A stretch of 64,000 nt of DNA, taken from Cryobacterium sp. HLT2-28. Lineage in GTDB: Bacteria > Actinomycetota > Actinomycetes > Actinomycetales > Microbacteriaceae. Shown here one piece after another: positions 27,786 through 47,934 of this stretch. The first letter of the stretch is position 1; the number at the start of each line of letters is the position of its first letter. The position numbers and the translations under genes are program-made. Below the pieces are notes generated by a model. That model had not been told where the DNA came from. It saw nothing but the letters and a program-made list of their open reading frames with translations, and did not search any database. The stretch is from the NCBI RefSeq assembly GCF_004402495.1, contig NZ_SOFH01000018.1, positions 124,001 to 188,000 on the forward strand, in the 5' to 3' direction.

Positions 27786-27843
27786 CCCGCCCGGACCCCG
27801 GTCCGGTCGAGCGCCCGTTCCCCGCACGTCAGTTAGGACTCCC

Positions 27844-28890
27844 ATGCCTGCCCCCAGCCCCGTCGTCGAGCTCCGTGACGTGAGCAAGGTGTACCCGCCC
27901 ACGGTCAAGGGGGGTGCCGAGGTCGTCGCGATCGACGGCGTGAGCCTCACCGTCGACGCCGGCGACGTCTACGGCATCATCGGGTATTCCGGTGCCGGCA
28001 AGAGCACCCTCGTGCGCCTGATCAACGCGCTCGAACGCTCGACCAGCGGGGAGATTCTCGTCAACGGGCAGGACATCGCCCGGCTCCCCGAGCGGGAACT
28101 GCGCCCGGTGCGACTCGGCATCGGGATGATCTTCCAGCAGTTCAACCTGCTCGGGTCCCGCACCGTGGCCGCGAACGTCGGCTACCCGCTCGAGGTGGCC
28201 CGTCAGCCGAAGGACACGCGCAGGGCGCGCGTCGCCGAGATGCTCGATTTCGTCGGCCTCAGCGACAAGGCCCGCGCCTACCCCGACCAGCTCTCCGGCG
28301 GGCAGAAGCAGCGGGTGGGCATCGCCAGGGCCCTCGCGACCCAGCCGGGCATCCTGCTCGCCGACGAGGCCACCAGCGCGCTCGACCCGGAGACGACGCA
28401 CGAGGTGCTCGACCTGCTCGGCCGGGTGAACAAGGAGTTCGGGGTCACCATCGTCGTCATCACGCACGAGATGGATGTCATCCAGACCCTGGCGACCAAG
28501 GTCGCCGTGATGGACCAGGGCCGGGTGATCGAACGCGGCGACGTGTTCGACGTCTTCTCGAACCCGCAGCAGCCGGCATCCGCCCGCTTCGTCTCCACCG
28601 TTGTGAAGGGTCTTCCCTCGGCGGGGGAACTGGCGGTGCTGCGTCACCGCCACCCGGGCCGGATCGTCACGCTGGCCTTCCGCGACAGCAGCGTCGACCA
28701 GGCCAGGGTGTTCGGCGAGTTCGCTGCCGCCGGCGTCACCTTCGAGGTCGTCTACGGCGGGATCAACGAGATCCAGGGCCGCTCCTTCGGGCACCTCACC
28801 TTGGCACTGACCAGCGCCGGCGGAGATTCGAGCATCGACGCCGTGCTCGACCGGGTGCGAACGCTCACGACCGTCACGGAGGTGCGCTGA
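27844..28890 (+). CDS. metN: Methionine ABC transporter ATP-binding protein
   Basis: 348 residues from ATG at 27844. ABC ATPase with Walker A YSGAGKSTLVRLINAL, Q-loop FQQFNLLGSRTVAANV, signature LSGGQKQRVGIARALAT and Walker B ILLADEATSALDPET. The C-terminal ~75 residues (from about GKIV-type GRIVTLAFRD to LTLALTS) form the NIL domain, which in MetN binds methionine and inhibits transport when the cell is replete. It powers the MetQNI importer. Its stop overlaps the metI start by one base. Confidence 0.95.
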   Translation: MPAPSPVVELRDVSKVYPPTVKGGAEVVAIDGVSLTVDAGDVYGIIGYSGAGKSTLVRLINALERSTSGEILVNGQDIARLPERELRPVRLGIGMIFQQFNLLGSRTVAANVGYPLEVARQPKDTRRARVAEMLDFVGLSDKARAYPDQLSGGQKQRVGIARALATQPGILLADEATSALDPETTHEVLDLLGRVNKEFGVTIVVITHEMDVIQTLATKVAVMDQGRVIERGDVFDVFSNPQQPASARFVSTVVKGLPSAGELAVLRHRHPGRIVTLAFRDSSVDQARVFGEFAAAGVTFEVVYGGINEIQGRSFGHLTLALTSAGGDSSIDAVLDRVRTLTTVTEVR

Positions 28891-29549
28891 TGGATTCCCT
28901 GATCGCCCTCATGCCCGAATTCTGGAAGGCCGCGGGGGAGACCCTGTACATCGTCGGCTTCACGCTCTTCTTCGGCGGCCTCGGCGGACTGCTCGTCGGC
29001 CTCGGCCTCTACCTGACCCGGGCCGGCAGCATCCTCGCCAACAAGCCCGTCTTCGTGGTGCTCAACCTGTTCGTGAACATCGTGCGCCCGATCCCATTCA
29101 TCATCTTCCTCGCCGCGGCGCAGCCTCTGGCCCGGATGGTCGTCGGCACCGGAATCGGCAACAACGCGATCATCTTCACCATCTCGCTCGCGGCCTCCTT
29201 CGCAATGGGGCGGATCGTGGAGCAGAACCTGCTCACCGTGACGCCCGGGGTGATCGAGGCCGCCCGCAGCGTGGGGGCCGGTCCGCTCCGGATCATCTTC
29301 ACAGTGCTGCTGCCGGAGGCGCTCGGCCCGCTCATCCTCGGCTACACCTTCATCTTCGTCGCCCTGGTCGACATGTCCGCGGTCGCCGGCTACGTCGGCG
29401 GCGGCGGCCTCGGAAACTTCGCCCTGCTCTACGGCTACCGCCAGTTCAACCCGGTCGTCACCTGGGCGGCGGTGCTGCTGATCATCGTGCTCGTGCAACT
29501 CGTGCAGTTCCTGGGCAACTGGCTGGCCCGGAGGGCCTTCCGCCGCTGA
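28890..29549 (+). CDS. metI: Methionine ABC transporter permease
   Basis: 219 residues with five membrane helices, the usual size for MetI. The cytoplasmic EAA loop that docks on MetN is seen as VIEAARSVGAGPLRIIFTVLLPEA. ATG at 28890 shares its A with the metN stop codon. It completes the metQNI operon, which ends here: the next 187 bp contain no gene, only a short GC-rich inverted repeat near 29681. Confidence 0.95.
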   Translation: MDSLIALMPEFWKAAGETLYIVGFTLFFGGLGGLLVGLGLYLTRAGSILANKPVFVVLNLFVNIVRPIPFIIFLAAAQPLARMVVGTGIGNNAIIFTISLAASFAMGRIVEQNLLTVTPGVIEAARSVGAGPLRIIFTVLLPEALGPLILGYTFIFVALVDMSAVAGYVGGGGLGNFALLYGYRQFNPVVTWAAVLLIIVLVQLVQFLGNWLARRAFRR

Positions 29550-33110: not shown

Positions 33111-34154
33111 ATGTCAATCACGACCCTGCCTTCACCGCGCCCGGGGATCTCCCCGGACGGCGTGGAGGCACCCGCCGACCAGGACGCCCCGCGGCGATCC
33201 CTGGATTCGCGGCCGTCGGGCTCGGACACCGTCTTCCGCTCGGTCGCCTTCGGCTCCGGCGCGATCACTGTGGCCATCATGCTCGCCGTCGGGGTCTTCC
33301 TCTCGATCCGGGCCTCCGATGCCCTCGGCGTCGCCGGCCTCTCCTTCCTGACCGAGCAGGAATGGTCGCCGGAGAGCAAAACCTTCGGCATCGCCTCAGT
33401 GCTGTTCGGCACGATCACGATCGCGCTGATCGCCATGTGCGTGGCGGTGCCGCTCGCCCTCGGCACGGCGCTGCTCATCTCCGAGGTGGCGGTGGGCAGG
33501 ATGCGCGCCACGCTGGTCACCCTCGTGGACCTCATGGCCGCGGTGCCGAGCGTCGTCTTCGGCCTGTGGGGAGTCTTCTTCCTCCAGGCGAACGTCATCC
33601 CGGTCGCCACCTGGATCTCGACCTACTTCGGCTGGATCCCGTTCTTCCGGGTCACGGATGCCACCGGCAACGCCCTCACCGAAGCCAGCGCTTTCACGTC
33701 GTCGGCCTTCATCGCCGGCATCGTCGTCGGCCTCATGGTCGTCCCCACCCAGACCTCGGTGATGAGGGAGGCCTTCTCCCAGGCGCCCGTCGGGGAACGG
33801 GAGGCTGCGTTCGCCCTGGGGTCGACCCGCTGGGGGATGATCCGGGCCGTCGTGCTCCCGTTCGGCCGCGGCGGCATCATTGGCGGCACCATGCTCGGCC
33901 TTGGCCGCGCACTCGGAGAGACCATCGCGGTGTACATGATCATCTCGCCGATCTTCACCATCAACTGGGAGGTGCTCAAGACGGGCACGAACTCGGTGTC
34001 GGCCCTGATCGCCCTGCGCTACGGCGAGTCCAGCGCCTTCGGGCTGTCGGCTCTCATGGCCGCCGGGCTCGTGCTCTTCCTGATCACCCTGGTGATCAAC
34101 TTCTCCGCGTCGTCGATCGTCGCCCGATCCCGCTCCGGGGCAGAGAGCAGCTGA
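33111..34154 (+). CDS. pstC: Pst-type phosphate ABC transporter permease
   Basis: 347 residues with a Pro/Asp-rich cytosolic N-terminus of about 45 residues and six predicted membrane helices. PstC features: LSFLTEQEWSPESKTFGIAS, MAAVPSVVFGLWGVFFL and the EAA loop EREAAFALGSTRWGMIRAVV. It should form the transmembrane channel with PstA. It heads a ten-gene same-strand locus that ends with pstB and contains surface proteins. A candidate PHO box lies in the 148 bp upstream. Phosphate is the expected substrate, but a related oxyanion cannot be excluded. Confidence 0.92.
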   Translation: MSITTLPSPRPGISPDGVEAPADQDAPRRSLDSRPSGSDTVFRSVAFGSGAITVAIMLAVGVFLSIRASDALGVAGLSFLTEQEWSPESKTFGIASVLFGTITIALIAMCVAVPLALGTALLISEVAVGRMRATLVTLVDLMAAVPSVVFGLWGVFFLQANVIPVATWISTYFGWIPFFRVTDATGNALTEASAFTSSAFIAGIVVGLMVVPTQTSVMREAFSQAPVGEREAAFALGSTRWGMIRAVVLPFGRGGIIGGTMLGLGRALGETIAVYMIISPIFTINWEVLKTGTNSVSALIALRYGESSAFGLSALMAAGLVLFLITLVINFSASSIVARSRSGAESS

Positions 34155-34155
34155 C

Positions 34156-35508
34156 ATGACGCTGACCATGACACCAACGGTCGATGCCGGCGGCCCTGCC
34201 ACGGACATCCGCCGGGCCGACCCCACCGGTGGGGAACCGGACCCCCGGGCCTCGGCCCAGACCACCCGGATCCACTCCGTTGAGGGCGTCGAGGTCGGCC
34301 CGCGGCGCCGGGTACGCTCGGCACGCCTCGACGACCGGTTCAATGTGCTGGGCGCGGCCGCCGCCGGAATCGCCGTCGCCGTGCTCCTCTTCGGATGGTT
34401 CACCCCGCTCTCCGGCGGGGTCGGCTGGGTGCTCGTCGCCTTCGTCGCGTTCCTCGGCTTCTACGCCCTGCTGGTGAGCCTCAGCTCGGACTGGCAGGAG
34501 GTGAAGGACCGGGTGATGGCGGTCATGCTCACGAGCGCCGGGGTCATCCTCTTCGGATCCCTTGTCTTCGTGGTCGCGTTCACGATCACCCGCGGCCAGG
34601 AGGCGCTGCCGCACCTCAACTTCTTCACCCAGAGCATGGAACTGGCCGGCCCGCTCGACGGCCTGGACCTGGGCGGTATCGCGCACGCCATCCTCGGGAC
34701 CCTGATGCAGATCACCATGGCACTCATCGTCACGGTCCCGCTCGGTATCGTCACGGCGCTCTTCCTCAACGAGGTCGGCGGTCCGTTCGCCCGTTTTGTG
34801 CGCACCATCTCGGATGCGATGACCGCGCTGCCCTCGATCGTCGCCGGCCTCTTCGTCTACTCCGCGATCATCGTGCTGATCACCCACCAGCGCTCGGGTT
34901 TCGCCGCATCCATGGCGATCACAGTGATGATGCTCCCCATCGTTATCCGGGCGTCCGACATCGTGCTCCGGCTGGTTCCCGGCAACCTGCGCGAGGCGGC
35001 ATATGCCCTCGGCTCGACCAGGTGGCGCACCGTCTGGCACGTGGTGCTGCCGACGGCCCGGCCAGGCCTGGCCACGGCCGTCATCCTCGGCACCGCACGA
35101 GGCATCGGGGAGACGAGCCCGGTGCTGCTCACCTCGGGCGTGACCGCAGTGGTCAACCTCAACCCCTTCGAGGGACCGATGATCTCCCTGCCCCTCCAGG
35201 TCTTCGACTTCGTCAAGTCGCCGGAGCCCACAATGATCGCGCGAGGGTTCGGCGCGGCGGCCGTTCTCCTTCTCCTGGTCCTCGCCCTGTTCTACATCGC
35301 GCGGGTGATCGGCGGTCGCGGCCCAGGCGAGCTCAGTCGCCGCCAGCAGTTGCGGGTCATCGCCGCGTCGGCGCGGGACCACCAGCGCATCACGGTCCGC
35401 AGCGCGCGTGGCCGGGCCGCCGGGCCGCCGGAATCCTCGTCCCCCCTCGCCTCACCGCCAGCCGCCTCATCCCCGAGCGCATCCGCACAGAAGGAGACGT
35501 CGTCGTGA
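34156..35508 (+). CDS. pstA: Pst-type phosphate ABC transporter permease, enlarged
   Basis: 450 residues, about 150 longer than usual PstA. It starts one base after the pstC stop. A disordered N-terminus and an extra pair of membrane helices (LGAAAAGIAVAVLLFGWF, VLVAFVAFLGFYALLVSL) precede the PstA core, which shows FFTQSMELAGPLDGLDLGGI, ALPSIVAGLFVYSAIIVL and the EAA loop REAAYALGSTRWRTVWHVV. A Ser/Pro/Ala-rich C-terminal tail of about 60 residues follows. The extra helices could contact the other membrane-anchored surface proteins of the locus (inference). The stop overlaps the pstS GTG by 4 bases. Confidence 0.92.
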   Translation: MTLTMTPTVDAGGPATDIRRADPTGGEPDPRASAQTTRIHSVEGVEVGPRRRVRSARLDDRFNVLGAAAAGIAVAVLLFGWFTPLSGGVGWVLVAFVAFLGFYALLVSLSSDWQEVKDRVMAVMLTSAGVILFGSLVFVVAFTITRGQEALPHLNFFTQSMELAGPLDGLDLGGIAHAILGTLMQITMALIVTVPLGIVTALFLNEVGGPFARFVRTISDAMTALPSIVAGLFVYSAIIVLITHQRSGFAASMAITVMMLPIVIRASDIVLRLVPGNLREAAYALGSTRWRTVWHVVLPTARPGLATAVILGTARGIGETSPVLLTSGVTAVVNLNPFEGPMISLPLQVFDFVKSPEPTMIARGFGAAAVLLLLVLALFYIARVIGGRGPGELSRRQQLRVIAASARDHQRITVRSARGRAAGPPESSSPLASPPAASSPSASAQKETSS

Positions 35509-37133
35509 CGCCGCACAACAAGTGGATTCCCGCAATCCGCGCCCTCGCAGTCCTGGCCGTGGTCTTCGCAAGCGTGACGAGTACGGTGCCGGCCCAGGCC
35601 GCCAGCTACGACCCCATCACCGGCACCGGATCGACCTGGTCCCAGAATGCGCTCGACCAGTGGCGCAAGAACGTCGCCTCCAACTACGGCATGACCGTCA
35701 ACTACTCGGGCGTCGGCTCCTCCGCCGGACGCCGCGACTTCGCCGCGGGCAGCGTCGACTTCGCCGTGACGGAGATCCCGTTCCAGACCGCCCCCGAGGA
35801 CGGTTCGGCTCCCGAGACTCCGACCCGCGGCTACGCGTACATGCCGATCGTCGCGGGCGGGTCCTCCTTCATGTACAACCTCAAGATCGGCGGGGTGCGG
35901 GTGTCCAACCTGCGGCTCAGCGGCCCCGTCATCACGAAGATCTTCACCGGCGTGATCACCAAGTGGAACGACCCGGCCATCCAGGCCGACAACCCGGGCC
36001 TCGCGATGCCGGACAAGGGAATCGTGCCCGTCGTCCGCTCCGACGGTTCCGGTTCGAGCGCGCAGTTCACGCTGTGGATGTCCAAGCAGCATCCCGACCT
36101 GTGGAACGCGTTCTGCGCATCCGTCGGCCGGAAGGTGCCCTGCGGGCTGACCTCGCAGTACCCGACGTTCGGCAACGCCAAGGCGCAGAGCGGCTCCTCC
36201 GGCGTGGCGGGTTACGTCAGCCAGGACTACGGGGAAGGAGCGATCACCTACGTCGAGTACTCGTACGCCCTCGAGGCCGGTTTCCCGGTCGTCAAGGTGC
36301 TCAACGCGGCTGGTTACTACGTGGAACCGACCGCGAACTCGGTGGCCGTCGCACTGCTCCAGGCACAGATCAAGACGGATGTCCCCGTCACCAGCCCCGA
36401 CTACCTCACCCAGATCCTCGACGGGGTCTACAACAACCCCGACCCCCGCACCTACCCCCTGTCGAGCTACTCGTACATGGTGGTGCCGACCCAGGTCGGC
36501 GGAGTGTTCACGGCGAAGAAGGGCACAACACTCGGGGCCTTCGCCAACTACATGCTCTGCGAGGGACAGCAACAGGCGGCCGACCTCGGCTACTCGCCGC
36601 TGCCGATGAACCTCGTGCTGGCCGGCTTCGACCAGATCAAGCGTGTGCCCGGCGCCGACACCAGCGGGGTCGACATCAACAAGTGCAACAACCCGACATT
36701 CAAGCCGGGTGATTCGCCCTCGAACAACCAGCTTGCGCTCACGGCTGCCCAGCCGCAGGACTGCGACAAGGTCGGGGCGAACCAGTGCACGACCGGCACG
36801 GCAGGCTCCGTCGCCGACACGCCGATCTCGGGCAGTGGCGTGGGCGGCAGCGCCGACGGAGCGGCTGACGCCGTCGGCGCCGCCGACGCCGCGGCAGCTG
36901 CGGGCGCTCCCGTTACCGCCGCGAGCTACGACGAAAACGGGGCCCTGATCTCCGGCGGCACGGCCGTCGCCGGCGCGGCCGTCGCCTCACCGTTCACCCT
37001 GGCCGACACAGGCTGGAGCGCACAGCAGTCGATCATGCTCTTCGCGGGGATACTGCTCGTCGCCGCCTCCGTGCTTCCGCCGGTGTTCTGGCGCCGGCTC
37101 ACACCGCGCGGCGCGAAGGCGGCCACGAAATGA
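35505..37133 (+). CDS. pstS: PstS-like phosphate-binding protein with LAXTG-type wall-sorting signal
   Basis: 542 residues from GTG at 35505, overlapping pstA; AAGGAGA precedes it. Sec signal ending VPAQAA, with no lipobox. The PstS domain shows the two phosphate loops ITGTGSTWSQNALDQW and VRSDGSGSSAQFTLWM, and the typical YSYMVVPTQ and GYSPLPMNLV. After an Ala/Gly/Asp-rich linker comes FTLADTGWS (LADTG, about residues 500-504), a membrane helix and the basic end WRRLTPRG. That is the layout of class E sortase substrates (LAXTG). So this binding protein appears wall-anchored or retained by its helix instead of lipid-anchored, which is unusual for PstS. The gene overlaps the next start by 4 bases. 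Confidence 0.9.
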   Translation: MTPHNKWIPAIRALAVLAVVFASVTSTVPAQAASYDPITGTGSTWSQNALDQWRKNVASNYGMTVNYSGVGSSAGRRDFAAGSVDFAVTEIPFQTAPEDGSAPETPTRGYAYMPIVAGGSSFMYNLKIGGVRVSNLRLSGPVITKIFTGVITKWNDPAIQADNPGLAMPDKGIVPVVRSDGSGSSAQFTLWMSKQHPDLWNAFCASVGRKVPCGLTSQYPTFGNAKAQSGSSGVAGYVSQDYGEGAITYVEYSYALEAGFPVVKVLNAAGYYVEPTANSVAVALLQAQIKTDVPVTSPDYLTQILDGVYNNPDPRTYPLSSYSYMVVPTQVGGVFTAKKGTTLGAFANYMLCEGQQQAADLGYSPLPMNLVLAGFDQIKRVPGADTSGVDINKCNNPTFKPGDSPSNNQLALTAAQPQDCDKVGANQCTTGTAGSVADTPISGSGVGGSADGAADAVGAADAAAAAGAPVTAASYDENGALISGGTAVAGAAVASPFTLADTGWSAQQSIMLFAGILLVAASVLPPVFWRRLTPRGAKAATK

Positions 37134-39694
37134 CGCGGCTGACCTTCAACCAGGACTCGCTCTGGACCCGCGCCGGCGCGAGCGGACTCGTCGTCGGCCT
37201 GTTCGTGGGCGTCGGCGTCGCCCTGCTCGGCTCGCTCGCCCCGCAGGCGGCGGTCGCTGACTCCTCAAGCGCGGTCACCGTCACGGCGGCCGCCCAGGAC
37301 TCCGACGTTGCATCCGCGCCGTTCCCCGCGCTCTCCGTGACGGTGTCCAAGACCGCAGACCTCACCTCGGAGGGGATCCTAGTCAGCTGGACCGGCGGCA
37401 AGAAATCGACCGCGCCGCAGGGATCGGTGGGGGGTGCGAACTTCCTTCAGATCGCGCAGTGTTGGGGCGACGACCCTCTGCACCCCGGGCACCCTGACCG
37501 CACGACGTGCCAGTACGGAGCGTTCGCGAACGCCGGTCGCGAAGCGGACGTGCACGAGAACACCGAGGAGAATCCGAAGAACATCGCGCAGCAGGACGCG
37601 CAGTACACGTCCCCGCGCACTGGTATCTTCACCGGTCCGTACACGGCAATTCCTTTTCGAGCGGTGTCCGGTGAGATGGTCGCACCCGTCCACGAGAAAG
37701 ACGGCGTCCTCGTCCACGACACGACCGTCGACCTGGTCAACAACCAGTTCTTCACCCAATTCACATCCAATGAAATCAAGTGGGCCGGGTCGGACGATTC
37801 CGGCGCCGGCTCGGTGAAGTTCGAGGCGCAGACCTCCATGCAGTCCCCGGGGCTGGGCTGCGGTGCGCCCGTCATCGTGACCGGCCAGCCCACGACCGGC
37901 CAGTCGTGCTGGCTCGTCGTCATCCCGCGCGGAACCGGCGACTCCGGTGTCGGCCAGATCCTCCGGCCCGGCCTTTTCTGGGATGCCTGGCAGCACAACG
38001 TGGCGGTGAAGCTCGATTTCAAGCCCGTCGGCATCCGCTGCGAAATCGGCAGTGCCGAGAGTCGGCTCTCGGGCAGCGAGCTCATCGCCGGTGCGATCTC
38101 TTCGTGGCAGCCGAACCTCTGCGGCGGCAGTGCCGGCTCGGCCTTCGTCCTGGGCACTGGAAACGAAGCCGATGTTCTCGCCGTGGCTGCGAAGACCACT
38201 CCTAGCCCGCTCGCGCTGACCTCCCGGCCCCTCGCGACGACCCAGAGGGATCCGCTGCAGTACGCGCCCGTCGGCATCTCCGGCCTGGCGATCTCCTTCT
38301 CGATCGACCGTCGAGTTAAACCTGTCGACGGAGTACCGCGGGCTTATCAAGACGCGGAGACCCAGGCTTTCACGACTCTGAAGCTCACACCCCGTCTCGT
38401 GGCCAAATTACTCACGGCCTCCTACGTTTCGGCGCTCCCGCCCGGCGCCGACCTCACGCACATCGGCTACAAGAGTTTTTCGGACCCAGGGCCCAACGCC
38501 CGCAACATCTCAGGTGACAAGGACTTCCTCGAGGCCAACGACAGGGAGTGGGCGTATCAGGACCTCAACAGCATCTCGATCGCCGACGCGCTTGCCCCGT
38601 CTGGCCGTTCGGACATCGCAACGCAGCTCTGGCGCTACGTGATGGCGGATGCCGATGCGGTCGCATTCCTCAACGGAACCCCGGACCCGTGGGGCATGAG
38701 AGTCAATCCGTATTACTCCACCAACGCCGCGATCAACCCCACCGGGATCGGACTCATGCTGCCGCGTGACACCTTCCCGAAGGCCGATCCCGTTGAGAAG
38801 GCGGCGACCACCGGCGGCAATGGCGTCGGGGCCGTGAACCTCGTCACCTGGCGTCCCTTCACCTCCGACTTCGAAAACGGCGCCTATCTCACGTTGCGCG
38901 GCGACGGTCAGTTGCTCGGCGGCTGGGATTCGACGGCTACCCCGCCGAAGTACCTCAAGACCGCACGCAGCCTCGTCGGCCAGCAGGGTGTGATCGGGCT
39001 CACCACGACGGCCTCGGCGGCCCGTTACCAGAACGTCACCGCTTCGCTCAGAAACTCCGCCGGCACGTTCGTGGCGCCGAGTTCTGCCTCAATGCTGGCC
39101 GCGGCTGCGGCGATGACCCCCACGGCAGCGCAGGCAAAAGTGCTCGAATTCGACCCGAAGTCGACCGCGGCCCTCGCCGCGACCACCGCCTACCCGTTGA
39201 CTATGCCGGTCTACGCCGCCCTGAATCCGCTGCAGACGGATGCCTCGAACCGTGCGAAGTACGCCGCGCTGATTACCTACGGCGTCACTGCCGGCCAGGT
39301 CCAGGGCACGTCCCTCGGCCAGTTGCCCGCAGGATACGCCCCGCTTCCGAAAAGCTGGGTTGACCAGGCGCTCCTGGCCGCCGCGGCGATCAGGGACGGC
39401 GTCAGCCCGATCGCGGCGACCGTGCCGACGGTTCCCTTGGCCGTCTCGCCGTCGACGCCGACGACGGCGGGCGTCCGAAGCGCTGCCGCGGCGGTCGCCG
39501 ATGCTGCCGCGACTGCGGTTGCCGACGCCGCCGACCCCGTTGCCAGCGGTGCTGCCGCCGGGGCGCTCGTCGGGAAGCCCACACCCGCAGACCCGGCCAG
39601 CCCGGTGGCAGCGGCTGTTCCGGCCGGACTGCTCTCAGGGCTTCTTGCAGCCGGAGCGTTCCCCCTGTTCTCACGAATCAGAAGGAGATTCTGA
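37130..39694 (+). CDS. Large PstS-like secreted protein with C-terminal membrane anchor
   Basis: 854 residues, ATG overlapping the pstS stop. Signal-anchor-like N-terminus (GLVVGLFVGVGVALLGSLA) and mature start near AVADSSS. I recognise a PstS-like end in AALITYGVTAGQVQGTSLGQ followed by LPAGYAPLPKSWVDQAL, the usual last helix of phosphate-binding proteins. The N-terminal ~350 residues are unassigned and contain two Cys pairs (about QCWGDD ... TTCQYG and GLGCGAP ... QSCWLV). An Ala-rich linker leads to a final helix GLLSGLLAAGAFPLF and RIRRRF; there is no LPXTG motif. The middle of the gene has less extreme GC and freer codon use than its neighbours. Function inferred: an accessory binding or scaffold subunit of the transporter complex. 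Confidence 0.75.
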   Translation: MTRLTFNQDSLWTRAGASGLVVGLFVGVGVALLGSLAPQAAVADSSSAVTVTAAAQDSDVASAPFPALSVTVSKTADLTSEGILVSWTGGKKSTAPQGSVGGANFLQIAQCWGDDPLHPGHPDRTTCQYGAFANAGREADVHENTEENPKNIAQQDAQYTSPRTGIFTGPYTAIPFRAVSGEMVAPVHEKDGVLVHDTTVDLVNNQFFTQFTSNEIKWAGSDDSGAGSVKFEAQTSMQSPGLGCGAPVIVTGQPTTGQSCWLVVIPRGTGDSGVGQILRPGLFWDAWQHNVAVKLDFKPVGIRCEIGSAESRLSGSELIAGAISSWQPNLCGGSAGSAFVLGTGNEADVLAVAAKTTPSPLALTSRPLATTQRDPLQYAPVGISGLAISFSIDRRVKPVDGVPRAYQDAETQAFTTLKLTPRLVAKLLTASYVSALPPGADLTHIGYKSFSDPGPNARNISGDKDFLEANDREWAYQDLNSISIADALAPSGRSDIATQLWRYVMADADAVAFLNGTPDPWGMRVNPYYSTNAAINPTGIGLMLPRDTFPKADPVEKAATTGGNGVGAVNLVTWRPFTSDFENGAYLTLRGDGQLLGGWDSTATPPKYLKTARSLVGQQGVIGLTTTASAARYQNVTASLRNSAGTFVAPSSASMLAAAAAMTPTAAQAKVLEFDPKSTAALAATTAYPLTMPVYAALNPLQTDASNRAKYAALITYGVTAGQVQGTSLGQLPAGYAPLPKSWVDQALLAAAAIRDGVSPIAATVPTVPLAVSPSTPTTAGVRSAAAAVADAAATAVADAADPVASGAAAGALVGKPTPADPASPVAAAVPAGLLSGLLAAGAFPLFSRIRRRF

Positions 39695-39803: not shown

Positions 39804-40907
39804 GTGATTTCGAAGAAGGCTATTGCGCTCTGCGCAACTGTCGGCGTTGCCATCTCCGGCATTGCCATTGCGACACCGGCCAACGCCGAGCCCGTCTCCA
39901 ACAGCTACTCCATCGTCGGTTCCGACACCCTCGAAGACGTCGTCGGCGCACTCGCCAACGGCACATCCATCACCGGTTCGTCAGTGCGCTCCACGATCAA
40001 CGGTGCCACGATCGGCTCCTTCGACGCTACAGGGTCCCCTTACATCACGACCAAGAGCGCCGGTGTGCGTTTCGGGCGTCCCAACGGTTCCGGCGATGGA
40101 GTCAAAGCGCTCAGCCGTTCGATCGACGGCGCGAGCTACACCGCCGGAACCGCCGGTAGCCCGACGGCGGCGATCACCGGCCAGGTCGACATCGCCCGGT
40201 CTTCCAGCGGGGGGACGGCGAACGCCGCAGGCGAGCTCCTGTATGTGCCCTTCGGCCGCGACGCGATCGCCTACGCCTACAAGGGCGCCGCATCCGGAAT
40301 CGACACCCTGACGGTGTCGCAGATGAAGAGCCTCTACGAGTGCTCCGCCGGCTTCCAGATCGGCGGCGTCACCGTCACCCCGATCATTCCCCAGGCAGGC
40401 TCGGGAACCCGCAAGGACTTCCTATCGAAGATCGGCTCGACCGAGGCTCTCATGCTCACCGTTGGTGAGGGCGGCTGCGTCGTCGAAGGCCAGGAACACG
40501 ACGCCACCACCCTCACTGCCGAATCGGTCATGCCGATGGCCGTGTCCCGTTGGATCGCCATGAACACGGGCGCGAGCTACGACAAGCGTGGCACCGGAAC
40601 GCTCGGTTCGCTCGTCTCCGGCGTTGTACCGGTCACAGGGACGGGGACGGCCATGGTCCCGAACGCCGTTTACTACGCCGACACCACCTGGGGCCGCGAC
40701 ACGTACCTAGTCGTGGAGTATGCCCGAGTGAACAGCGCCGATGCGAAGTACGACGCCAACCTCGCTGCATTGCTCGACCCGAATCAGTCAACAGCCCTGA
40801 CCAACACGTCGCCCGTCGTCTCCCGCGCGGGCGCCGTCAAGAAGAAGTTCGGCTTCCTCGCTCCCACGGTCGGCGTCGTCGCCTACCGCGTCGCCAAGAC
40901 TGCTTAG
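39804..40907 (+). CDS. Secreted PstS-like phosphate-binding protein, unanchored
   Basis: 367 residues from GTG at 39804. Signal peptide cleaved after ATPANA; no lipobox, helix or sorting signal at the end, so it should be released or held by other proteins. The PstS fold is indicated by YSIVGSDTLEDVVGALA, the segment ITGQVDIARSSSGG, LTVSQMKSLYECSAG and the oxyanion loop IIPQAGSGTRKDFLSKI. A 109-bp gap with a small hairpin separates it from the large PstS-like gene. Three different PstS-like proteins in one locus suggest a relay from the outside inward (inference). Confidence 0.82.
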   Translation: MISKKAIALCATVGVAISGIAIATPANAEPVSNSYSIVGSDTLEDVVGALANGTSITGSSVRSTINGATIGSFDATGSPYITTKSAGVRFGRPNGSGDGVKALSRSIDGASYTAGTAGSPTAAITGQVDIARSSSGGTANAAGELLYVPFGRDAIAYAYKGAASGIDTLTVSQMKSLYECSAGFQIGGVTVTPIIPQAGSGTRKDFLSKIGSTEALMLTVGEGGCVVEGQEHDATTLTAESVMPMAVSRWIAMNTGASYDKRGTGTLGSLVSGVVPVTGTGTAMVPNAVYYADTTWGRDTYLVVEYARVNSADAKYDANLAALLDPNQSTALTNTSPVVSRAGAVKKKFGFLAPTVGVVAYRVAKTA

Positions 40908-40941: not shown

Positions 40942-42036
40942 ATGAAGCTCACTAAGAAAATGCGCTTTGCCGCCGTCGGCATTGTGTCCCTCTCCCTCGT
41001 CGCCGGTGCCGCGGCCGTTGCCTCCGCAGCCGTCCAAACCAACGGTTCGGATGGCCCGTTCTACGTCTTCGATAGAAACATTGCCCTCGTCACCGATCCG
41101 ACAACCGTCTTCCAGTGGAACTCGGACAACTTCGCCTCCGGTGCAGCCACCAGCTATGACGTGCCGACCATGTGCCCGATCGCTTCCACAGGAGCGAGTA
41201 TCTTCTTGTCAGACGTCGGCAGCGAGCGCACGGTGCTCTCCTGGAAGGCGACCGCACTTAGCGCATTCAACCCTCAGCCGGCAGTCGCCGGCACGAAAGA
41301 GGTCATCGCGGCGACCCTGACGCCGATCACCCTCATCAATGGCCTTCCTGGGCAGGCCGCGGTGAAGGCTGCGGGCGGCACCTACAGCCTCGGTATGGCG
41401 TGCACCACTAACAATGGTGTGACCGTTGTCGGTGCCTTCTACCGCACGATCCACGTGACGGCCGGTACCGGCGCCTACACGGTCGACGCCCAGGCCGATG
41501 TCGCCGTGACCCCGACCCCGACGCCCACGCCAACGGCCCCGGCCGGCACCACGGGCGACGTGGCGCTCGCGCCGACGGTCGCAGCCGCCAGTAACGGCGT
41601 GCTCAGCTTCTCTGTTCCGGCGGGCGCTGCGGCAACCTTCGGCGCTCCGACGCTGGTCAACAACAAGTCGACCACCGTGGGCACCCTGGGTGCCGTCACG
41701 GTAGCCGACGGCCGCATCGTCACGCGCAACGGCTGGGACCTCACCGCGAACGTCGCTGACTTCAAGAAGAGCACCGACGCCGCCAACACCATCAGCAACA
41801 AGCAGCTCGGCTTCGTCCCGACGGTCACCGCCGTCGGCACAGACGCGACCGGCGTCACCGCCGCGGCTGCCCAGACCGCGGGCACGGCCAGCTACCCGGC
41901 GGCCTTCGCCTCCGGCGCAGCCGCCAACACGGTCGGAAACACGGTGCTGAACGCCGCACTGACCTTCGTCGCACCCCAGGAGAAGGCGGCCGGTACCTAC
42001 ACCTCCGTCATGACCCTGACGGTCGTCTCGAAGTAA
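40942..42036 (+). CDS. WxL-like secreted surface protein
   Basis: 364 residues from ATG at 40942. Signal peptide cleaved near VASAAVQ. A globular N-terminal domain (about 35-185, one Cys pair) is followed by a Thr-Pro linker and a beta-rich C-terminal domain. In that domain RNGWDLTANVADFKK gives a W-x-L motif (about residue 264) and the end is AAGTYTSVMTLTVVSK. This resembles WxL domains of Firmicutes, which bind peptidoglycan and work with DUF916 proteins; the next gene encodes such a partner. The second, W-x-L motif near the end is degenerate (MTLTV). Assignment is by motif and partnership. Confidence 0.65.
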   Translation: MKLTKKMRFAAVGIVSLSLVAGAAAVASAAVQTNGSDGPFYVFDRNIALVTDPTTVFQWNSDNFASGAATSYDVPTMCPIASTGASIFLSDVGSERTVLSWKATALSAFNPQPAVAGTKEVIAATLTPITLINGLPGQAAVKAAGGTYSLGMACTTNNGVTVVGAFYRTIHVTAGTGAYTVDAQADVAVTPTPTPTPTAPAGTTGDVALAPTVAAASNGVLSFSVPAGAAATFGAPTLVNNKSTTVGTLGAVTVADGRIVTRNGWDLTANVADFKKSTDAANTISNKQLGFVPTVTAVGTDATGVTAAAAQTAGTASYPAAFASGAAANTVGNTVLNAALTFVAPQEKAAGTYTSVMTLTVVSK

Positions 42037-42140: not shown

Positions 42141-43226
42141 GTGACCCCCACCGCCTCCGTCACCCACCGACTGCTCGCCGCCGCGAGCGTGCTCCTGACC
42201 CTGGGACTGACCCTGACCCTCGGCGCCACGGGCGCCTGGGCCGAGGATTCCGACGGCATCGCGGCCGCCCCTGCCGCCGATGGCGGCGTCGACCAGTCCA
42301 GGTCTCGGTACAGCTACCAGGTCGAACCCGGCCAGCAGGTGGCGGACGAGTACCTCGTCGAGAACACCGGCACCACCGTGCAGTCGGTGACCGTGTACGC
42401 CACTGACGCGTTCAACGCAGAGGACGGCAGCTTCGCCCTCCTCGACGGCGGCGTCGAAGCGACGGGCGCCGGGCGCTGGGTCAGTTTCGACGGCGGGGCC
42501 GACCGGATGCAGCTCACCCTTCAGCCGGGAGCGTCCCAGGTGGTGCCGTTCACCGTGATGACGCCGGCTGACGCGGGTCCCGGCGACCACGCCGGCGGCA
42601 TCATCGTCTCGGCGCTCTCGCCGGCCGGCGAAGTGTCCGTCGACCGGCGCGTGGCAATTCGGCTCTACGTGCGGGTTAAGGGGCTGCTGCAACCGGGACT
42701 CACGATCAGCAGCATCGCGACCTCCTACCGCCCCGAACTGAATCCCTTCTCAGGGGAGCTGACGGCCACGATCAGCCTGAGCAACACCGGCAACGTCGCC
42801 CTCGTGGCCAACACGGTCACGCAGGTGCGCGGCCTGTTCGGCATCCCGCTGTCCGGCCTGACCGACGTCAAGGTTTCCGAGATGCTGCCCGGCAGCAACC
42901 GCACGGTGACCATCACGATCCCGGGTGTCGGCCCGTGGGTCTACCTCGCCCCGCACGTCTCCCTCGCGGCGACGGTCGAGCCGGGAGCCCTCGACGCCGG
43001 GGTGCTGCCCGCGGCCGAACGCGACGCCACCCTGTTTGTGGTGCCATGGGGCGTCCTGCTCGTGCTGCTCCTCGTGGGCCTGGCCTGGCTCATTGCGCGG
43101 CTCCGCCGCCGGCGCAACGCCACCCGGGCGCAGGCCTGGGTCGAGTACACCGAGGCCGAAGCACGACGCAGGGCCCTCGAGGACGCCCCGGCGGAGACAG
43201 AATCAGCGGGGATGCCCGTGCACTGA
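42141..43226 (+). CDS. DUF916 (WxL-interacting, peptidoglycan-binding) type membrane-anchored protein
   Basis: 361 residues from GTG at 42141. Signal peptide ending ATGAWA. The N-terminal domain matches the DUF916 pattern: YSYQVEPGQQVADEYLVENT, then VTVYATDAFNAEDGSFALL and LTLQPGASQVVPFTV ... PGDHAGGIIVSAL. A second Ig-like domain (SGELTATISLSNTGNVALVA, the position of DUF3324) follows, then one membrane helix FVVPWGVLLVLLLVGLAWLI and an Arg-rich cytosolic tail. In Firmicutes such proteins pair with WxL proteins in cell-surface complexes. Here it would be the membrane tether of the WxL-like protein. Confidence 0.78.
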   Translation: MTPTASVTHRLLAAASVLLTLGLTLTLGATGAWAEDSDGIAAAPAADGGVDQSRSRYSYQVEPGQQVADEYLVENTGTTVQSVTVYATDAFNAEDGSFALLDGGVEATGAGRWVSFDGGADRMQLTLQPGASQVVPFTVMTPADAGPGDHAGGIIVSALSPAGEVSVDRRVAIRLYVRVKGLLQPGLTISSIATSYRPELNPFSGELTATISLSNTGNVALVANTVTQVRGLFGIPLSGLTDVKVSEMLPGSNRTVTITIPGVGPWVYLAPHVSLAATVEPGALDAGVLPAAERDATLFVVPWGVLLVLLLVGLAWLIARLRRRRNATRAQAWVEYTEAEARRRALEDAPAETESAGMPVH

Positions 43227-43301: not shown

Positions 43302-44351
43302 TTGACTGTGCTCACCACCCACCCCGCGCTGCGCCTGCTGCTCGTGGCCGTTTTCGCCTTCGTCCCGCTCGCCGGGCTGGTCGGCGGCACCCCCAGCGCA
43401 CAGGCCGGCAACGATTCAGATGGCGTCGGCCTCACCGTGGACGTAGCCCAACCGACCGCGAGTCCCCGGCCCGACGCCAGCTGCGAGCTGCCGTTCGGTA
43501 AGCCAGCCAGCCACGCTCAGGTCCGGATCCGGGTCAGGCACCTCAAGCTGGGATCCCTGGCGCAGGCCCACGTGCACTCCACGCCGACCCTGCTCGCCAG
43601 CGGCACCGCCGACGCCGACGGAAGTGTCGTGCTGAACGGCACCCTCCCGGATGACCTCGCGGTCGGCAGCCACAGTATCTCCCTCACGGGCATCGCGGTG
43701 GACGGTCAGGCGTTCACCCAGACCGTGCTGACGTTCACGGTTACCGCGGGCGGACTCCTCGCCGCCGAGGCTCCGCCGTCGGCCGTCGCGGCGTCGGTGC
43801 GTACCGCTGCCACGCCGGCACGCGTCGCACAGGCGCCCGTGACCGGGCCGGCCGCCGTCGCCGCGGCGCTCGGCTCGGAGGCCGTGGCGCTGGGCGGCGT
43901 GCTCACCGTCAGCGGTCTCACGGTCCGCGCGGTCCCGGCCCTCACCCCGGACGGCGGCGACGTCATCCTCGATTTCACCATCCGCAACGTGTCAGCGGCG
44001 CCGATCACATCGAGCCTGAACTTCTGGATCGACAACGCCGTCGGCCTCCCGATCGCGCAGGTCGACGACGTCGCCGTCGCCGACCTAGCGGCGGGGGAGA
44101 CCCGCACGGCCACCGCGACGCTCTCTGACGTGGGCCAGTGGACCGTATTCAACGGCCACGTCACGCTCACCCCGCCGGCCACGGTCGGTGGCAACGATCT
44201 CACCCCGGTCTCCCGTGATGCCTTCATCATCGTGCCACCGTTCTTCCTCCTGCTTGTCGTAGCCCTCGCCGCGGGACTCAGCCTCGCTGTGCGATTCGTG
44301 CTGCGTGCACGCCGCGCCATCCGTGCCGTGCCGGTCGCGGCCGCATCGTGA
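43302..44351 (+). CDS. Secreted Ig-like protein with C-terminal membrane anchor
   Basis: 349 residues if read from TTG at 43302; GTG at 43308 is equally possible. Signal peptide (LRLLLVAVFAFVPLAGLVG). Two beta-rich domains are visible: a short one with one Cys (DASCELPFGKPASHAQVRIR ... LAVGSHSISLTGIAVDG) and, after an Ala/Val-rich linker, a DUF916-like or Ig-like one (DVILDFTIRNVSAAPITSSL). The end is a membrane helix (IIVPPFFLLLVVALAAGLSL) and basic tail. No enzyme signature. It probably belongs to the same surface complex. The stop overlaps the next gene by 4 bases. Confidence 0.7.
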   Translation: MTVLTTHPALRLLLVAVFAFVPLAGLVGGTPSAQAGNDSDGVGLTVDVAQPTASPRPDASCELPFGKPASHAQVRIRVRHLKLGSLAQAHVHSTPTLLASGTADADGSVVLNGTLPDDLAVGSHSISLTGIAVDGQAFTQTVLTFTVTAGGLLAAEAPPSAVAASVRTAATPARVAQAPVTGPAAVAAALGSEAVALGGVLTVSGLTVRAVPALTPDGGDVILDFTIRNVSAAPITSSLNFWIDNAVGLPIAQVDDVAVADLAAGETRTATATLSDVGQWTVFNGHVTLTPPATVGGNDLTPVSRDAFIIVPPFFLLLVVALAAGLSLAVRFVLRARRAIRAVPVAAAS

Positions 44352-45388
44352 CCGAGCTCAAGCCGTCGAAGGGACGCCGTTCGCGCATGCCGGCGACTCC
44401 GGATCGACCGGAGATCGGCCCGAAACCGGCACGGAGTCGGATCCCGCGCGCGGCCGCACCCCCGCGTGGCTGGAAGCCGGGCCAGGTCCCACCCCGGCCG
44501 CCGCGCCGCCCCCCGGTCTCCGTCCGGCCCCCGGTCGTCCTGACCGCCCGGGACGATCTCGTGCGCACCTCTCTCGCGATCCTGGCCGCCGTCATCTTCG
44601 GGATCCTCGCGAATGTCACGGTGCTCGGCCAACTGCAGCACATCGTGGCCCAGCAGCAACTCACCGACACCCTCCGGGTCGAACTGGCCGCGGGAACGGC
44701 ACCCGTGAGCGAGGGCACGATCGACAAGGTGCTCCTCACTGACGGCACTCCGCTCGCCGTGGTCGACATTCCCTCGATCGGCGTGCACGAGGTCATCGTC
44801 GAGGGAACCGATTCCGCGACGACGCGCACCGGCCCCGGCCACCGGCGCGACACCGTGCTGCCCGGGCAGGCGGGTGTGAGTGTCGTGATGGGCCGTGCGG
44901 CGGCGTTCGGCGGCCCGTTCGCACGGATTCAGGAGCTCCGGCCCGGCCAGAAGTTCACGGTCACCACCGGGCAGGGCAGGCAGACGTTCGCCGTGATCGG
45001 GCTGCGCTACGCGGGCGATCCGGCCCCGGCGCCCCTGACGGCCGGCCACAGCCGGCTGATCCTCGAGACGGCCCGCGGCCCCGCCTTCATCCCGGGCGGC
45101 ATCGCCAGGGTCGATGCCGAGCTGACGAGTGAGACGAAGCCCGCGGGCATCCGCCAGACGACGTATGCCACCCTGCCCGCCGCCGACCTTGAACTCGCCA
45201 ACGACACCTCGACGGCGTGGGCGCTCGTATTCGCCCTGCAGTTCTTCCTCGTGATCGAACTCGCCGCGGTGTGGGCGTTCAGGCGCGTCGGAGGCCGGAA
45301 GACGTGGATCGTCTTCATCCCCGTCGTCACTCTCGGCGGGCTCCTGGTCGCCGACCAGGTAGTCAGGCTCCTTCCCAACCTGCTTTAG
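44348..45388 (+). CDS. Sortase-fold membrane protein lacking catalytic residues (pseudo-sortase)
   Basis: 346 residues from GTG at 44348. A Pro/Arg-rich cytosolic N-terminus, one membrane helix (about 75-95), then an extracytoplasmic sortase-like domain: AVVDIPSIGVHEVIVEGTD (about 136), TGPGHRRDTVLPGQAG, FGGPFARIQELRPGQKFTVT, QTFAVIGLRYAGD and LILETARGPAF ... GGIARVDAEL. In active class E sortases the motif GH (catalytic His) stands where this protein has MGR183, and TC (catalytic Cys) where it has TA242. The whole protein has no Cys. It therefore cannot be a transpeptidase. Two more helices end the chain. It likely serves as a structural or substrate-binding subunit of the complex. Confidence 0.8.
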   Translation: MTELKPSKGRRSRMPATPDRPEIGPKPARSRIPRAAAPPRGWKPGQVPPRPPRRPPVSVRPPVVLTARDDLVRTSLAILAAVIFGILANVTVLGQLQHIVAQQQLTDTLRVELAAGTAPVSEGTIDKVLLTDGTPLAVVDIPSIGVHEVIVEGTDSATTRTGPGHRRDTVLPGQAGVSVVMGRAAAFGGPFARIQELRPGQKFTVTTGQGRQTFAVIGLRYAGDPAPAPLTAGHSRLILETARGPAFIPGGIARVDAELTSETKPAGIRQTTYATLPAADLELANDTSTAWALVFALQFFLVIELAAVWAFRRVGGRKTWIVFIPVVTLGGLLVADQVVRLLPNLL

Positions 45389-45445: not shown

Positions 45446-46360
45446 GTGGCCATGATTGACGTGCAACTGGACGACGTGACGCAGCTGCTGCCGGTCCAAC
45501 GACCGCGGCGGCGGACGCCGTGGCGCAGGGGCGACGCGGCGTCGTCCGCGCCACCGGCGCCGGCCGCGGCACTCGCCCTCAAACCCCTGGCAACGCTCGA
45601 GGGTCGCAACGTGTCGGCCTGGTTCGGAACGCACCAGGTCCTCGACCGGGTGTCGCTCACCATGCCCGCCGGAGTCATCACCTCCCTGATCGGGCCGTCC
45701 GGGTGCGGCAAGTCGACCTTCCTGCGCATCCTCAACCGGATGCACGAGCTCGTCCCGTCGGCGAGCCTCGCAGGCGAAGTGCTCCTTGACGGCGAAGACA
45801 TCTACGACCCGGAGCGTAAACTCGTCGACGCCCGCAAGCACATCGGCATGGTCTTCCAAAAGCCCAACCCGTTCCCGGCGATGTCGATCTACGACAACGT
45901 CGTCGCAGGTCTCACCCTCACCGGCACTCGCGCGACCGCCGACGAGAAGGACTTCCTCGTCGAGAGCTGCCTGACCAAGGCCGGCCTCTGGAAGGAAGTC
46001 AGGGACCGTCTCCGCGCCCCGGGTGGCGGACTGTCCGGCGGCCAGCAGCAGCGTCTGTGCATCGCACGGTCCCTCGCCGTGACCCCGCGCATCCTGCTTA
46101 TGGACGAACCGTGCTCGGCGCTCGACCCGACATCGACGCGGGTGATCGAGGAGACGATGCTCGAGCTCGCCCACGAGGTGACGATCGTGATCGTCACCCA
46201 CAACATGCAGCAGGCCCAGCGGGTCTCCCAGAATTGCGCGTTCTTCCTCGCCGCGCAGGGAACCCCCGGGGGGATCGTCGAGCACGGTCCGACCGAGGCG
46301 ATGTTCGGGGACCCGATCGACAGCCGCACCGCCGACTACGTCAACGGCCGATTCGGCTGA
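45446..46360 (+). CDS. pstB: Pst-type phosphate ABC transporter ATP-binding protein
   Basis: 304 residues from GTG at 45446; ATG at 45452 is equally likely. An extra ~45-residue basic/Ala-rich N-terminus precedes a normal Pst[19 protein letters not shown], Walker [20 protein letters not shown]-loop [18 protein letters not shown], signature [17 protein letters not shown] and Walker [17 protein letters not shown]. It supplies ATP hydrolysis for PstCA encoded 10 kb upstream in the same run. There is no phoU gene after it, as would be usual. It closes the locus. Confidence 0.95.
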
Positions 46361-46413: not shown

Positions 46414-47934
46414 ATGACTTCCGAGGGCTTTGCCGAGATCGAGCGCAAATTCGACGTGAACCCGGCGACGCCGTTGCCGACCTTGCACGACCTTCCCGGG
46501 GTGACCCACGTCGCCCCGCCCGTCGAGCACCACCTCGACGCCCTCTACTTCGACACCGCCGACCTGGCGCTCGCCGGCCGCCGGATCACCCTCCGGCGGC
46601 GCGCCGGCGGCGATGACGCCGGCTGGCACCTCAAGCTCCCCGTCGCTGCCGACGAACGCCGCGAGATGCGCGAACCCGTCGGGGCCGACCCCGACGTGAT
46701 CCCCGAGGCGATCCTCCGCCTGGTTCGGGTCTACCTGCGCGGCCGGCCGCTGATGCCCGTCGTGCGGCTCCGCACCCTGCGCGTCGTGCACCACCTCGTC
46801 GGCCGGGACGACGCCGTGCTCGCGGAGGTCTGCGACGACTCGGTGCAGGCCGAACGGTTCGGCTCCGAACCGCTGAACCAGGCCTGGCGCGAATGGGAGA
46901 TCGAACTCGTCGACGGGTCCCGAGCGCTGCTCGACGCGGCCCAGGAGCGGTTGTCGACCGTGGGAGTCGAGCCGGCTGCAAGCCCGTCCAAGCTCGCCCG
47001 AGCCCTCGGAGACCTCGCCCCAGCCGGCACGCCCGTCGCGCCGGAACGGCCGGGGCCCGACAGCTCGACCGCGGACGTGCTGCTGGCGTACCTGCGGGCG
47101 CAGGTGGAGGCGGTCACGGCCGAGGACCCCCTCGTTCGCGAAAGCGATGTTGAGGCCGTGCACCGGATGCGCGTGGCAACCAGGCGGCTGCGTTCGGCCC
47201 TGTCCACCTACGGTCCGCTCCTCGACGCGGGGGTCGCCGACCCGCTCCGGGTCGAGCTGCGCTGGATCGCGGGCGTGCTCGGCGGAGCCCGGGACGCCCA
47301 GGTGATGTGCCAGCGTCTCACCCACCGGCTGGACCTGGAGCCGACGGGCCTCACCGCCGGACCGGTCGCCCCGCGGATCGACGAGCATTTCTCCACCGTC
47401 GTGCGGATCAGCGAGGCGGACACCCGGTCCGCCCTCGACTCCGACCGCTACTTCCGGCTCCTCGACACCCTCGACGAGCTGCTCGCGTCCCCGCCGCTGT
47501 ACCGCACGGCCGACAAGCCGGCGCGGAAGGTCGTCCCCGGCCTGGTCCGCGCAGACTGGAAGCACCTCCGCGCGGCGGTGCGCGCGGCCCGCCGCACCGC
47601 GACCGGCACCGAACGCGACGCGGCCCTGCACGAGGCCCGCAAACGCGCCAAGCAGCTGCGCTACGCGGCGGAGACGGCCGCACCTCTTCGCAGCAAGCGC
47701 GCCGCACGGCTCGTCGGCGCGGCCCGGCAGGTGCAGGAGATCCTCGGAGACCACCAGGACAGTGTCGTCGCGCGCGGCGAACTGCTCGGCCTGGGCATGA
47801 AGGCGTTCCTGTTCAACGAGAACGCCTTCACCTACGGACGGATGCACGCGGTCGAGGAGGCGGGCGCGGCCGGCACCGAGGCCCGCTTCTTCACCGCCTG
47901 GAAGGACTTCCCCTCCGCCTCGATCGACAAGTAG
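46414..47934 (+). CDS. CYTH and CHAD domain protein (polyphosphate-related)
   Basis: 506 residues. The N-terminal CYTH domain (about 1-200) has the diagnostic EIERKF, YFDTADLALAGRRITLRRR, WHLKLP and a C-terminal WEIEL. The CHAD domain (about 225-500) is helical and rich in His/Arg, with VEAVHRMRVATRRLRSAL, WIAGVLGGARDAQVM and LHEARKRAKQLRYAAE. CYTH enzymes act on triphosphates, and CHAD domains bind inorganic polyphosphate. Its place right after the phosphate-uptake-like locus fits a role in phosphate storage. It probably has its own promoter (-10 at 46403). Confidence 0.92.
   Translation: MTSEGFAEIERKFDVNPATPLPTLHDLPGVTHVAPPVEHHLDALYFDTADLALAGRRITLRRRAGGDDAGWHLKLPVAADERREMREPVGADPDVIPEAILRLVRVYLRGRPLMPVVRLRTLRVVHHLVGRDDAVLAEVCDDSVQAERFGSEPLNQAWREWEIELVDGSRALLDAAQERLSTVGVEPAASPSKLARALGDLAPAGTPVAPERPGPDSSTADVLLAYLRAQVEAVTAEDPLVRESDVEAVHRMRVATRRLRSALSTYGPLLDAGVADPLRVELRWIAGVLGGARDAQVMCQRLTHRLDLEPTGLTAGPVAPRIDEHFSTVVRISEADTRSALDSDRYFRLLDTLDELLASPPLYRTADKPARKVVPGLVRADWKHLRAAVRAARRTATGTERDAALHEARKRAKQLRYAAETAAPLRSKRAARLVGAARQVQEILGDHQDSVVARGELLGLGMKAFLFNENAFTYGRMHAVEEAGAAGTEARFFTAWKDFPSASIDK

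Follow-up and report, generated by a model that had tools for sequence, protein, structure and literature searches.

A predicted sortase-fold protein without the catalytic residues of sortases in a conserved Pst- and WxL-type gene cluster of actinobacteria

In Cryobacterium sp. HLT2-28, a gene inside a Pst- and WxL-type cluster encodes a pseudosortase, which by its predicted structure belongs to the sortase fold and not to the sortase enzymes. The His, Cys and Arg of sortase catalysis are all replaced across the family, and this loss of catalysis is strongly supported by alignment with active sortases. It appears somewhat probable that the protein is a non-catalytic docking or assembly subunit scaffolding a surface phosphate-uptake complex. 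The gene and its parts are given below; all positions are those of the window, the whole stretch of 64,000 nucleotides analysed.

44348..45388, + strand: pseudosortase (PSRT), 346 aa, GTG start, no Cys; intact ORF with predicted sortase fold, no catalytic residue kept
44546..44692, + strand: N-terminal long helix, residues 67–115, in the AlphaFold2 model; putative membrane anchor and helical stalk, placed in the membrane from the sequence
44693..45139, + strand: sortase barrel, residues ~116–264, from the AlphaFold2 model and VIA structure comparison
45206..45367, + strand: two C-terminal long helices, residues 287–314 and 316–340, followed by a conserved LPNLL end, from the AlphaFold2 model and alignment

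The Pfam Sortase model matches the pseudosortase with 43.7 bits against a cut-off of 26.6, over residues 140–217 only. The NCBIfam class E sortase model NF033747 gives the window protein 50.1 bits, below its curated cut-off of 160, and is matched by 77 of 77 family members at E ≤ 0.001; by sequence comparison, class E-like sortases appear to be the nearest relatives. The AlphaFold2 model, built with 77 sequences, reaches a pLDDT of 90 and a pTM of 0.79. In the VIA-align comparison with solved structures, all 50 matches listed are sortases, of several classes, with Z values of 13.1–17.6. The best among the matches listed is 6ixz (class C; Z 17.6, rmsd 2.9, 163 residues aligned), and the others include 5uus (Z 15.2, rmsd 2.8, 140 aligned), SrtE1 5cuw (Z 14.9, rmsd 2.2, 131 aligned) and 5go5, the sortase E of S. 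avermitilis (Z 14.5, rmsd 2.4 over 129). The entry 5uus is SrtF of Corynebacterium diphtheriae, which we take to be a class E-type sortase. Since structures of classes C and D reach equal or higher scores (up to Z 17.6), the class is not fixed by the fold alone. The model and its closest solved structures thus bear out the sortase fold that an earlier note, made from the sequence alone, had proposed, and the comparison with SrtE1 agrees with a sortase barrel. The three flanking helices described there are present in the model as the long helices 67–115, 287–314 and 316–340. The same note stressed the lack of Cys, which is true of the window protein and not peculiar to it, the sortase domain being Cys-free in all 80 alignment rows (best 80 of 134).

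The catalytic columns were read from an alignment in which 80 rows of the family were set against 17 sortases of this and related genomes, and the alignment was repeated profile against profile with 16 sortases. Four positions of the former catalytic and signal-reading site are as follows.

44894..44896, + strand: Arg183, in the column of the catalytic His; all 81 proteins carry Arg (best 80 of 134 loci and the window)
45074..45076, + strand: Arg243, in the column of the catalytic Cys; the 80 rows (best 80 of 134) have R 55, D 13, A 7, T 3, L 1, H 1
45101..45103, + strand: Ile252, in the column of the catalytic Arg; the 80 rows (best 80 of 134) have V 44, I 21, L 6, T 5, A 3, M 1
44843..44845, + strand: Arg166, where SrtE1 has Tyr229 (LAXTG reader); 77 of 80 rows carry Arg here (best 80 of 134)

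At the Arg183 column, His is found in 17 of 17 comparison sortases, in agreement with the earlier note. The Cys site, which that note had put at Ala242, lies one residue further, at Arg243: Cys occupies this column in 15 of the 17 comparison sortases, the two distant ones carrying it one column off, and the profile–profile alignment likewise sets Arg243 on the Cys column, so that Ala242 is ruled out by both alignments. Position 242 is Ala in 78 and Gly in 3 of the 81 proteins, and Cys occurs at neither 242 nor 243 in any of them (best 80 of 134 loci and the window). The C-terminal Arg segment, described as preserved, is not functionally conserved; the column of the catalytic Arg, with Arg in 15 of the 17 comparison sortases, falls on Ile252. 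Arg254, two residues past Ile252, was rejected as the catalytic Arg, being R in only 48 of 80 (best 80 of 134). In SrtE1, the catalytic residues are His251, Cys320 and Arg329, according to the sections of the source drawn on here (PMC5148588), and the spacing of nine from Cys320 to Arg329 equals that from Arg243 to Ile252. The same sections propose that Tyr229, a conserved Tyr of the β3/β4 loop, contacts LAXTG; this residue, placed in a Gly-His-Tyr stretch as read from the mutagenesis primers (PMC5148588), matches Arg166 of the window protein. In addition, the β6/β7 loop has 16 residues in 76 of 80 family rows and 15 in the other 4 (best 80 of 134), compared with 24 residues in 14 of the 17 comparison sortases and 20–21 in the remaining three.

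The named loci are the best 80 of 134 from a motif-pattern scan of genome contigs. Their hosts include Cryobacterium, Herbiconiux, Agromyces, Microbacterium, Leifsonia, Subtercola and Propionicicella, and further Actinoplanes, Phytohabitans, Kineosporia, Nakamurella, Streptomyces aureus, Microthrix, Acidimicrobiaceae and others. Because the scan patterns favour the pseudosortase clade and the best 80 of 134 were used, a catalytic sister clade could be missed in this set, and for this motif bias whole-genome similarity searches were run as well. Full-length matches, 17 altogether, were found in 16 of 60 relatives, the own genome included. Of these matches 16 were read, a second copy in genome G003 being left out, and 16 of 16 are without His and Cys at the catalytic sites, with one Cys outside the sortase domain in 2 of the 16 full-length relatives. 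In the search of 119 genomes of the order, some of them also among the 60, a full-length match was found in 9, and the 7 full-length loci new in this search are all without the catalytic His and Cys. Together, the searches yielded 23 readable full-length loci, consisting of the window, 9 with a core identical to named loci, and 13 distinct ones, and 13 of these 13 lack both residues. The weaker matches read, namely the 14 with loci in the search of 60 relatives and L137, one of two, in the search of 119 genomes, are ordinary sortases. The alignment of homologues therefore extends the loss from one protein to every member read (81 of 81 among the best 80 of 134 and the window, and 13 further distinct loci), which argues that the fold has been reused. 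No catalytic clade member, and hence no homologue with an intact triad in the same context, occurs among the loci read (best 80 of 134; similarity searches of 60 and 119 genomes).

The distribution is patchy, with no full-length pseudosortase match in 110 of the 119 order genomes. The Cryobacterium genome G003 holds two full-length matches, on contigs C47 and C83, which are 43% and 39% identical to the window's protein. In Cryobacterium breve (L089), the pseudosortase is spread over two reading frames, as a broken copy or by a sequencing error, with its neighbours present.

The transporter locus recognised in the earlier note proves to be a conserved Pst and WxL-type cluster with the pseudosortase inside it. 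The order in the window is that of the following lines, the pseudosortase lying between the last two.

33111..34154, + strand: pstC-like permease, from position and similarity in related loci; name from locus logic
34156..35508, + strand: pstA-like permease, from position and similarity in related loci; name from locus logic
35505..37133, + strand: PstS-type phosphate-binding protein (pstS) with C-terminal TM-like anchor and LADTG in its tail; PF12849 151.9 bits, TIGR00975 221.3 bits (cut-off 205)
37130..39694, + strand: 854-aa protein with predicted PstS fold and C-terminal helix; TIGR00975 part match 36.1 bits, model and Foldseek matches to PstS
39804..40907, + strand: small PBP-like protein, probably secreted; PF12849 20 bits, under the cut-off
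40942..42036, + strand: WxL-like surface protein, 364 aa, with a DxR then GWxL pattern
42141..43226, + strand: WxL-interacting protein of the PF06030/CscA type, ending in a TM-like stretch; 26.5 bits, slightly below the cut-off of 27.3
43302..44351, + strand: protein with C-terminal TM-like stretch, no Pfam match; slot encoding LPXTG-type proteins in some lineages
45446..46360, + strand: pstB-type ATPase directly downstream of the pseudosortase; TIGR00972 325.5 bits, under the cut-off of 343.2, versus 357.4 bits for the genome's other PstB copy

The 854-aa protein has no Pfam match; its model (pLDDT 78.5) finds PstS structures as best matches in Foldseek, with 1pc3 at E 6e-10 and a TM of 0.67 by target. 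PF06030 is matched by 18 of 20 alignment members at E ≤ 0.01, and the Pfam WxL model by 4 of 20, the window's own protein not among them. In 78 of 80 loci (best 80 of 134), pstB lies downstream on the same strand, and the other two sequences end 77 and 104 bases past the gene. The upstream genes were surveyed by tblastn in the 65 loci, out of the best 80 of 134, whose upstream sequence is 9.5 kb or longer. The 854-aa protein is present in 65 of 65, the small PBP in 64, pstS in 63 and the PF06030 protein in 61; the WxL-like protein (49 of 65) and the TM protein (47 of 65) both diverge fast, so their tblastn misses may be detection failures. Across the 119 order genomes, the 854-aa protein occurs in 8, each of them one of the 9 genomes that have a full-length pseudosortase; in the remaining one, the fragmented assembly G106, the pseudosortase is present and no 854-aa protein was detected. 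In the distant genome G096, the pseudosortase comes immediately after the 854-aa protein, with pstB at the far cluster end; the same genes in another order indicate that the linkage is not only frozen synteny.

The same genome contains a second, canonical pst locus whose PstS is lipoprotein-like (L129), and, elsewhere, a class E-type sortase with intact residues (L126, 4718–5527, minus strand). With a PHO-box consensus, 6 matches were found in the window versus 5.8 expected, which is the chance level, and a search for plasmid carriage of the pseudosortase gave no match. Within the window, positions 26886–29549 hold a MetQ/MetN/MetI-like transporter locus, with lipoprotein, ATPase and permease by the look of the sequence. 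Directly after pstB, 46414–47934 encodes a presumably CYTH/CHAD-like protein, which has a similarity match in 5 of the 80 related loci (best 80 of 134). In Phytohabitans, two PF06030-type proteins (L095, 13546–14814; L103, 14336–15235, the latter typed by position and a similar tail) end, unlike the window's, in LARTG or LPRTG followed by a TM-like stretch and a basic tail.

The earlier note had suggested that the fold was reused for binding or scaffolding; the reuse is supported, and binding or scaffolding is still the best guess for its purpose. In the proposed arrangement, the N-terminal helix and the C-terminal two-helix hairpin would anchor the pseudosortase with its barrel outside the membrane, and the protein would act without chemistry as a membrane-proximal docking or assembly subunit. 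It may keep the anchored PstS and the PstS-fold protein of 854 aa close to the PstC/PstA/PstB transporter, and may also keep a WxL-type wall complex there. A partner protein or an anion, not a sorting signal, would be the ligand of the remodelled former active site. By homology, the substrate of the cluster transporter would be phosphate. The canonical pst locus in the same genome, the 110 of 119 order genomes with no full-length match, the chance-level PHO-box count and genome G106 were counted against the scaffold reading, as was the lack of a pull-down partner for the precedent SipA. A wider formulation is put forward only tentatively, as a possibility short of a probable one: the sortase fold may have turned into a subunit of an ABC transporter, non-catalytic and either structural or anion-binding, that ties anchored phosphate receptors and the WxL wall complex to the permease.

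A sensing role, in which phosphate or a phosphate-bearing polymer would bind at the Arg-rich former active site and the protein would signal its supply to the transporter, is fairly unlikely. PstS-type binding proteins are encoded in the locus, and Arg166 (77 of 80) and Arg167, Arg183, Arg220 and Arg236 (each 80 of 80) are conserved among the best 80 of 134; however, Arg236 is also found in 16 of the 17 comparison sortases, and Arg243 is kept in only 55 of 80 (best 80 of 134).

The sorting signals of the cluster bear on another reading, in which the dead sortase binds the uncut LADTG tail of PstS or a neighbour's LPXTG-type tail, either passing it on to an active class E sortase or protecting it from one. 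The window's PstS does end in LADTG, a TM-like stretch and a basic tail, and a class E-type sortase with intact residues is encoded in the genome. Furthermore, the gene just upstream of the pseudosortase ends in a sorting-signal-like tail followed by a TM-like stretch in several loci, with LPKTG in L097, LPVTG in L112 and LASTG in L102, L103 and L106. Yet a TM-like C-terminal anchor is present in 66 of 68 PstS tails (67 loci and the window), whereas L[PA]xTG occurs in 1 of the 68, the window's own. The two tails without a TM-like stretch are those of L107, an ambiguous case, and of L063, the latter read in the wrong frame, the correct frame showing a TM tail. Tails of the L[PA]x[TS]G type were found in 9 of 80 ORF sets (79 loci and the window; no ORFs were called in L088) by a rough search that may miss some, and 2 of these 9 are PstS tails with Ser. 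The link drawn in the earlier note between the pseudosortase and the PstS tail thus rests on one species, and LADTG anchoring of PstS was rejected on the tail survey; a weaker form of the link persists in the five loci with a sorting-signal-like tail just upstream of the pseudosortase. On the side of the barrel, the residue corresponding to the signal-contacting Tyr229 is Arg, and the β6/β7 loop is shortened from 24 to 16 residues. The LADTG tail is accordingly not supported as a ligand, and signal reading in general is unlikely.

For the phylogeny, the tree was built with the catalytic columns removed, and L089, which is in two pieces, was dropped from the 80-row alignment and the tree. The 80 family rows (best 80 of 134) fall on one side of a branch against 15 sortases with an SH-aLRT of 98 when the distant sortases L002 and L004 are left out; with both included, the family is not on one side, L002, on a branch of length 8.82, lying inside it. 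At 18 positions, many of them charged or polar, the residue is fixed at ≥90% in the family and at <20% in the 15 comparison sortases, the apparently conserved N-terminal positions, which are gap columns, being ignored in this count. The newly fixed positions include R166, R167, D168, Q174, R183, Q209, R220, D224 and D256, and such a new set is unexpected for a site that merely lost its chemistry. In the 77-row alignment A2, from which L046, L057, L086 and L089 were dropped, 26 columns are invariant, and dN/dS is 0.054–0.245 in the 11 of 12 pairs for which it could be calculated, the twelfth containing N bases. By these substitution patterns, the gene is kept under purifying selection, and the 18 newly fixed positions together with dN/dS of 0.05–0.25 point to an old, selected family, not to decay.

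That polar residues are newly fixed, not merely lost, could also mean that the barrel has acquired a different chemistry, with a new active site formed from the fixed H165, R166, R167, D168, R183, R220 and D256. This is quite unlikely, as the 26 invariant columns of the 77-row alignment contain no Cys, Ser or Thr, and H165 is common to the comparison sortases and not specific to the family. We know of no precedent for a sortase barrel with such new chemistry. A decaying or redundant gene without function, to which the copy in two pieces in Cryobacterium breve and the lack of a full-length match in most order genomes might point, is most improbable and is ruled out by the low dN/dS, besides the invariant columns and the one cluster kept across many families.

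If the wider formulation is true, there would be a whole class of dead sortases with a role in transport, as part of an actinobacterial phosphate-uptake machine. A conserved, widespread dead branch suggests that the sortase fold can be kept for a use other than transpeptidation, and offers a natural system for studying such a use. The branch also points to an assembly on the cell surface, built around a second Pst-type transporter of actinobacteria. Annotation of sortases often relies on fold or on family score, and as the pseudosortase passes the Pfam cut-off, it may be miscounted as an enzyme. In the open-licence literature searched, neither a dead sortase family nor the Pst/WxL/pseudosortase cluster was found described. 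For Actinoplanes missouriensis, five sortases, one of class E and four of class F, are studied in the part of the source drawn on here (PMC13251363).

Compared with the class E-type sortases (SrtE1 of Streptomyces coelicolor, 5cuw; 5go5; 5uus), the pseudosortase shares the predicted barrel fold, the GPGH and PGQ blocks, and the N-terminal anchor. However, its His, Cys, catalytic Arg and LAXTG-reading Tyr are replaced, its β6/β7 loop is shorter, and it has two C-terminal helices and a fixed place in the Pst/WxL cluster. In the case of the canonical PstSCAB system, the cluster has corresponding homologues of PstS, the permeases and PstB, but its PstS carries a C-terminal TM-like anchor, whereas the genome's canonical PstS looks like a lipoprotein; moreover, two further PBP-type proteins and the pseudosortase are added.

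The csc/WxL clusters of low-GC Gram-positives likewise contain a CscA-type PF06030 protein with a C-terminal TM segment; their WxL-type protein would correspond to the WxL-like one here, and their CscD, a small LPXTG-signal protein, has a counterpart here in some lineages (PMC1534035, in the sections drawn on). Those sections name neither a sortase-fold gene nor an ABC transporter as a member of the clusters, and the actinobacterial locus differs in that it combines the WxL set with Pst genes and the pseudosortase.

By analogy, the nearest precedent in kind is SipA of Streptococcus pyogenes, which has a signal-peptidase fold without the catalytic residues and is needed for pilus polymerisation; in the sections of the source drawn on here, pull-downs found no partner, and the authors propose that SipA acts by binding (PMC4049620). 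Both proteins are dead relatives of an envelope enzyme that are kept in a surface-assembly cluster. There are, however, clear differences: SipA has the fold of a signal peptidase, belongs to a pilus cluster and, as described in those sections, keeps its peptide cleft, whereas the loop lining the groove is shortened in the pseudosortase.
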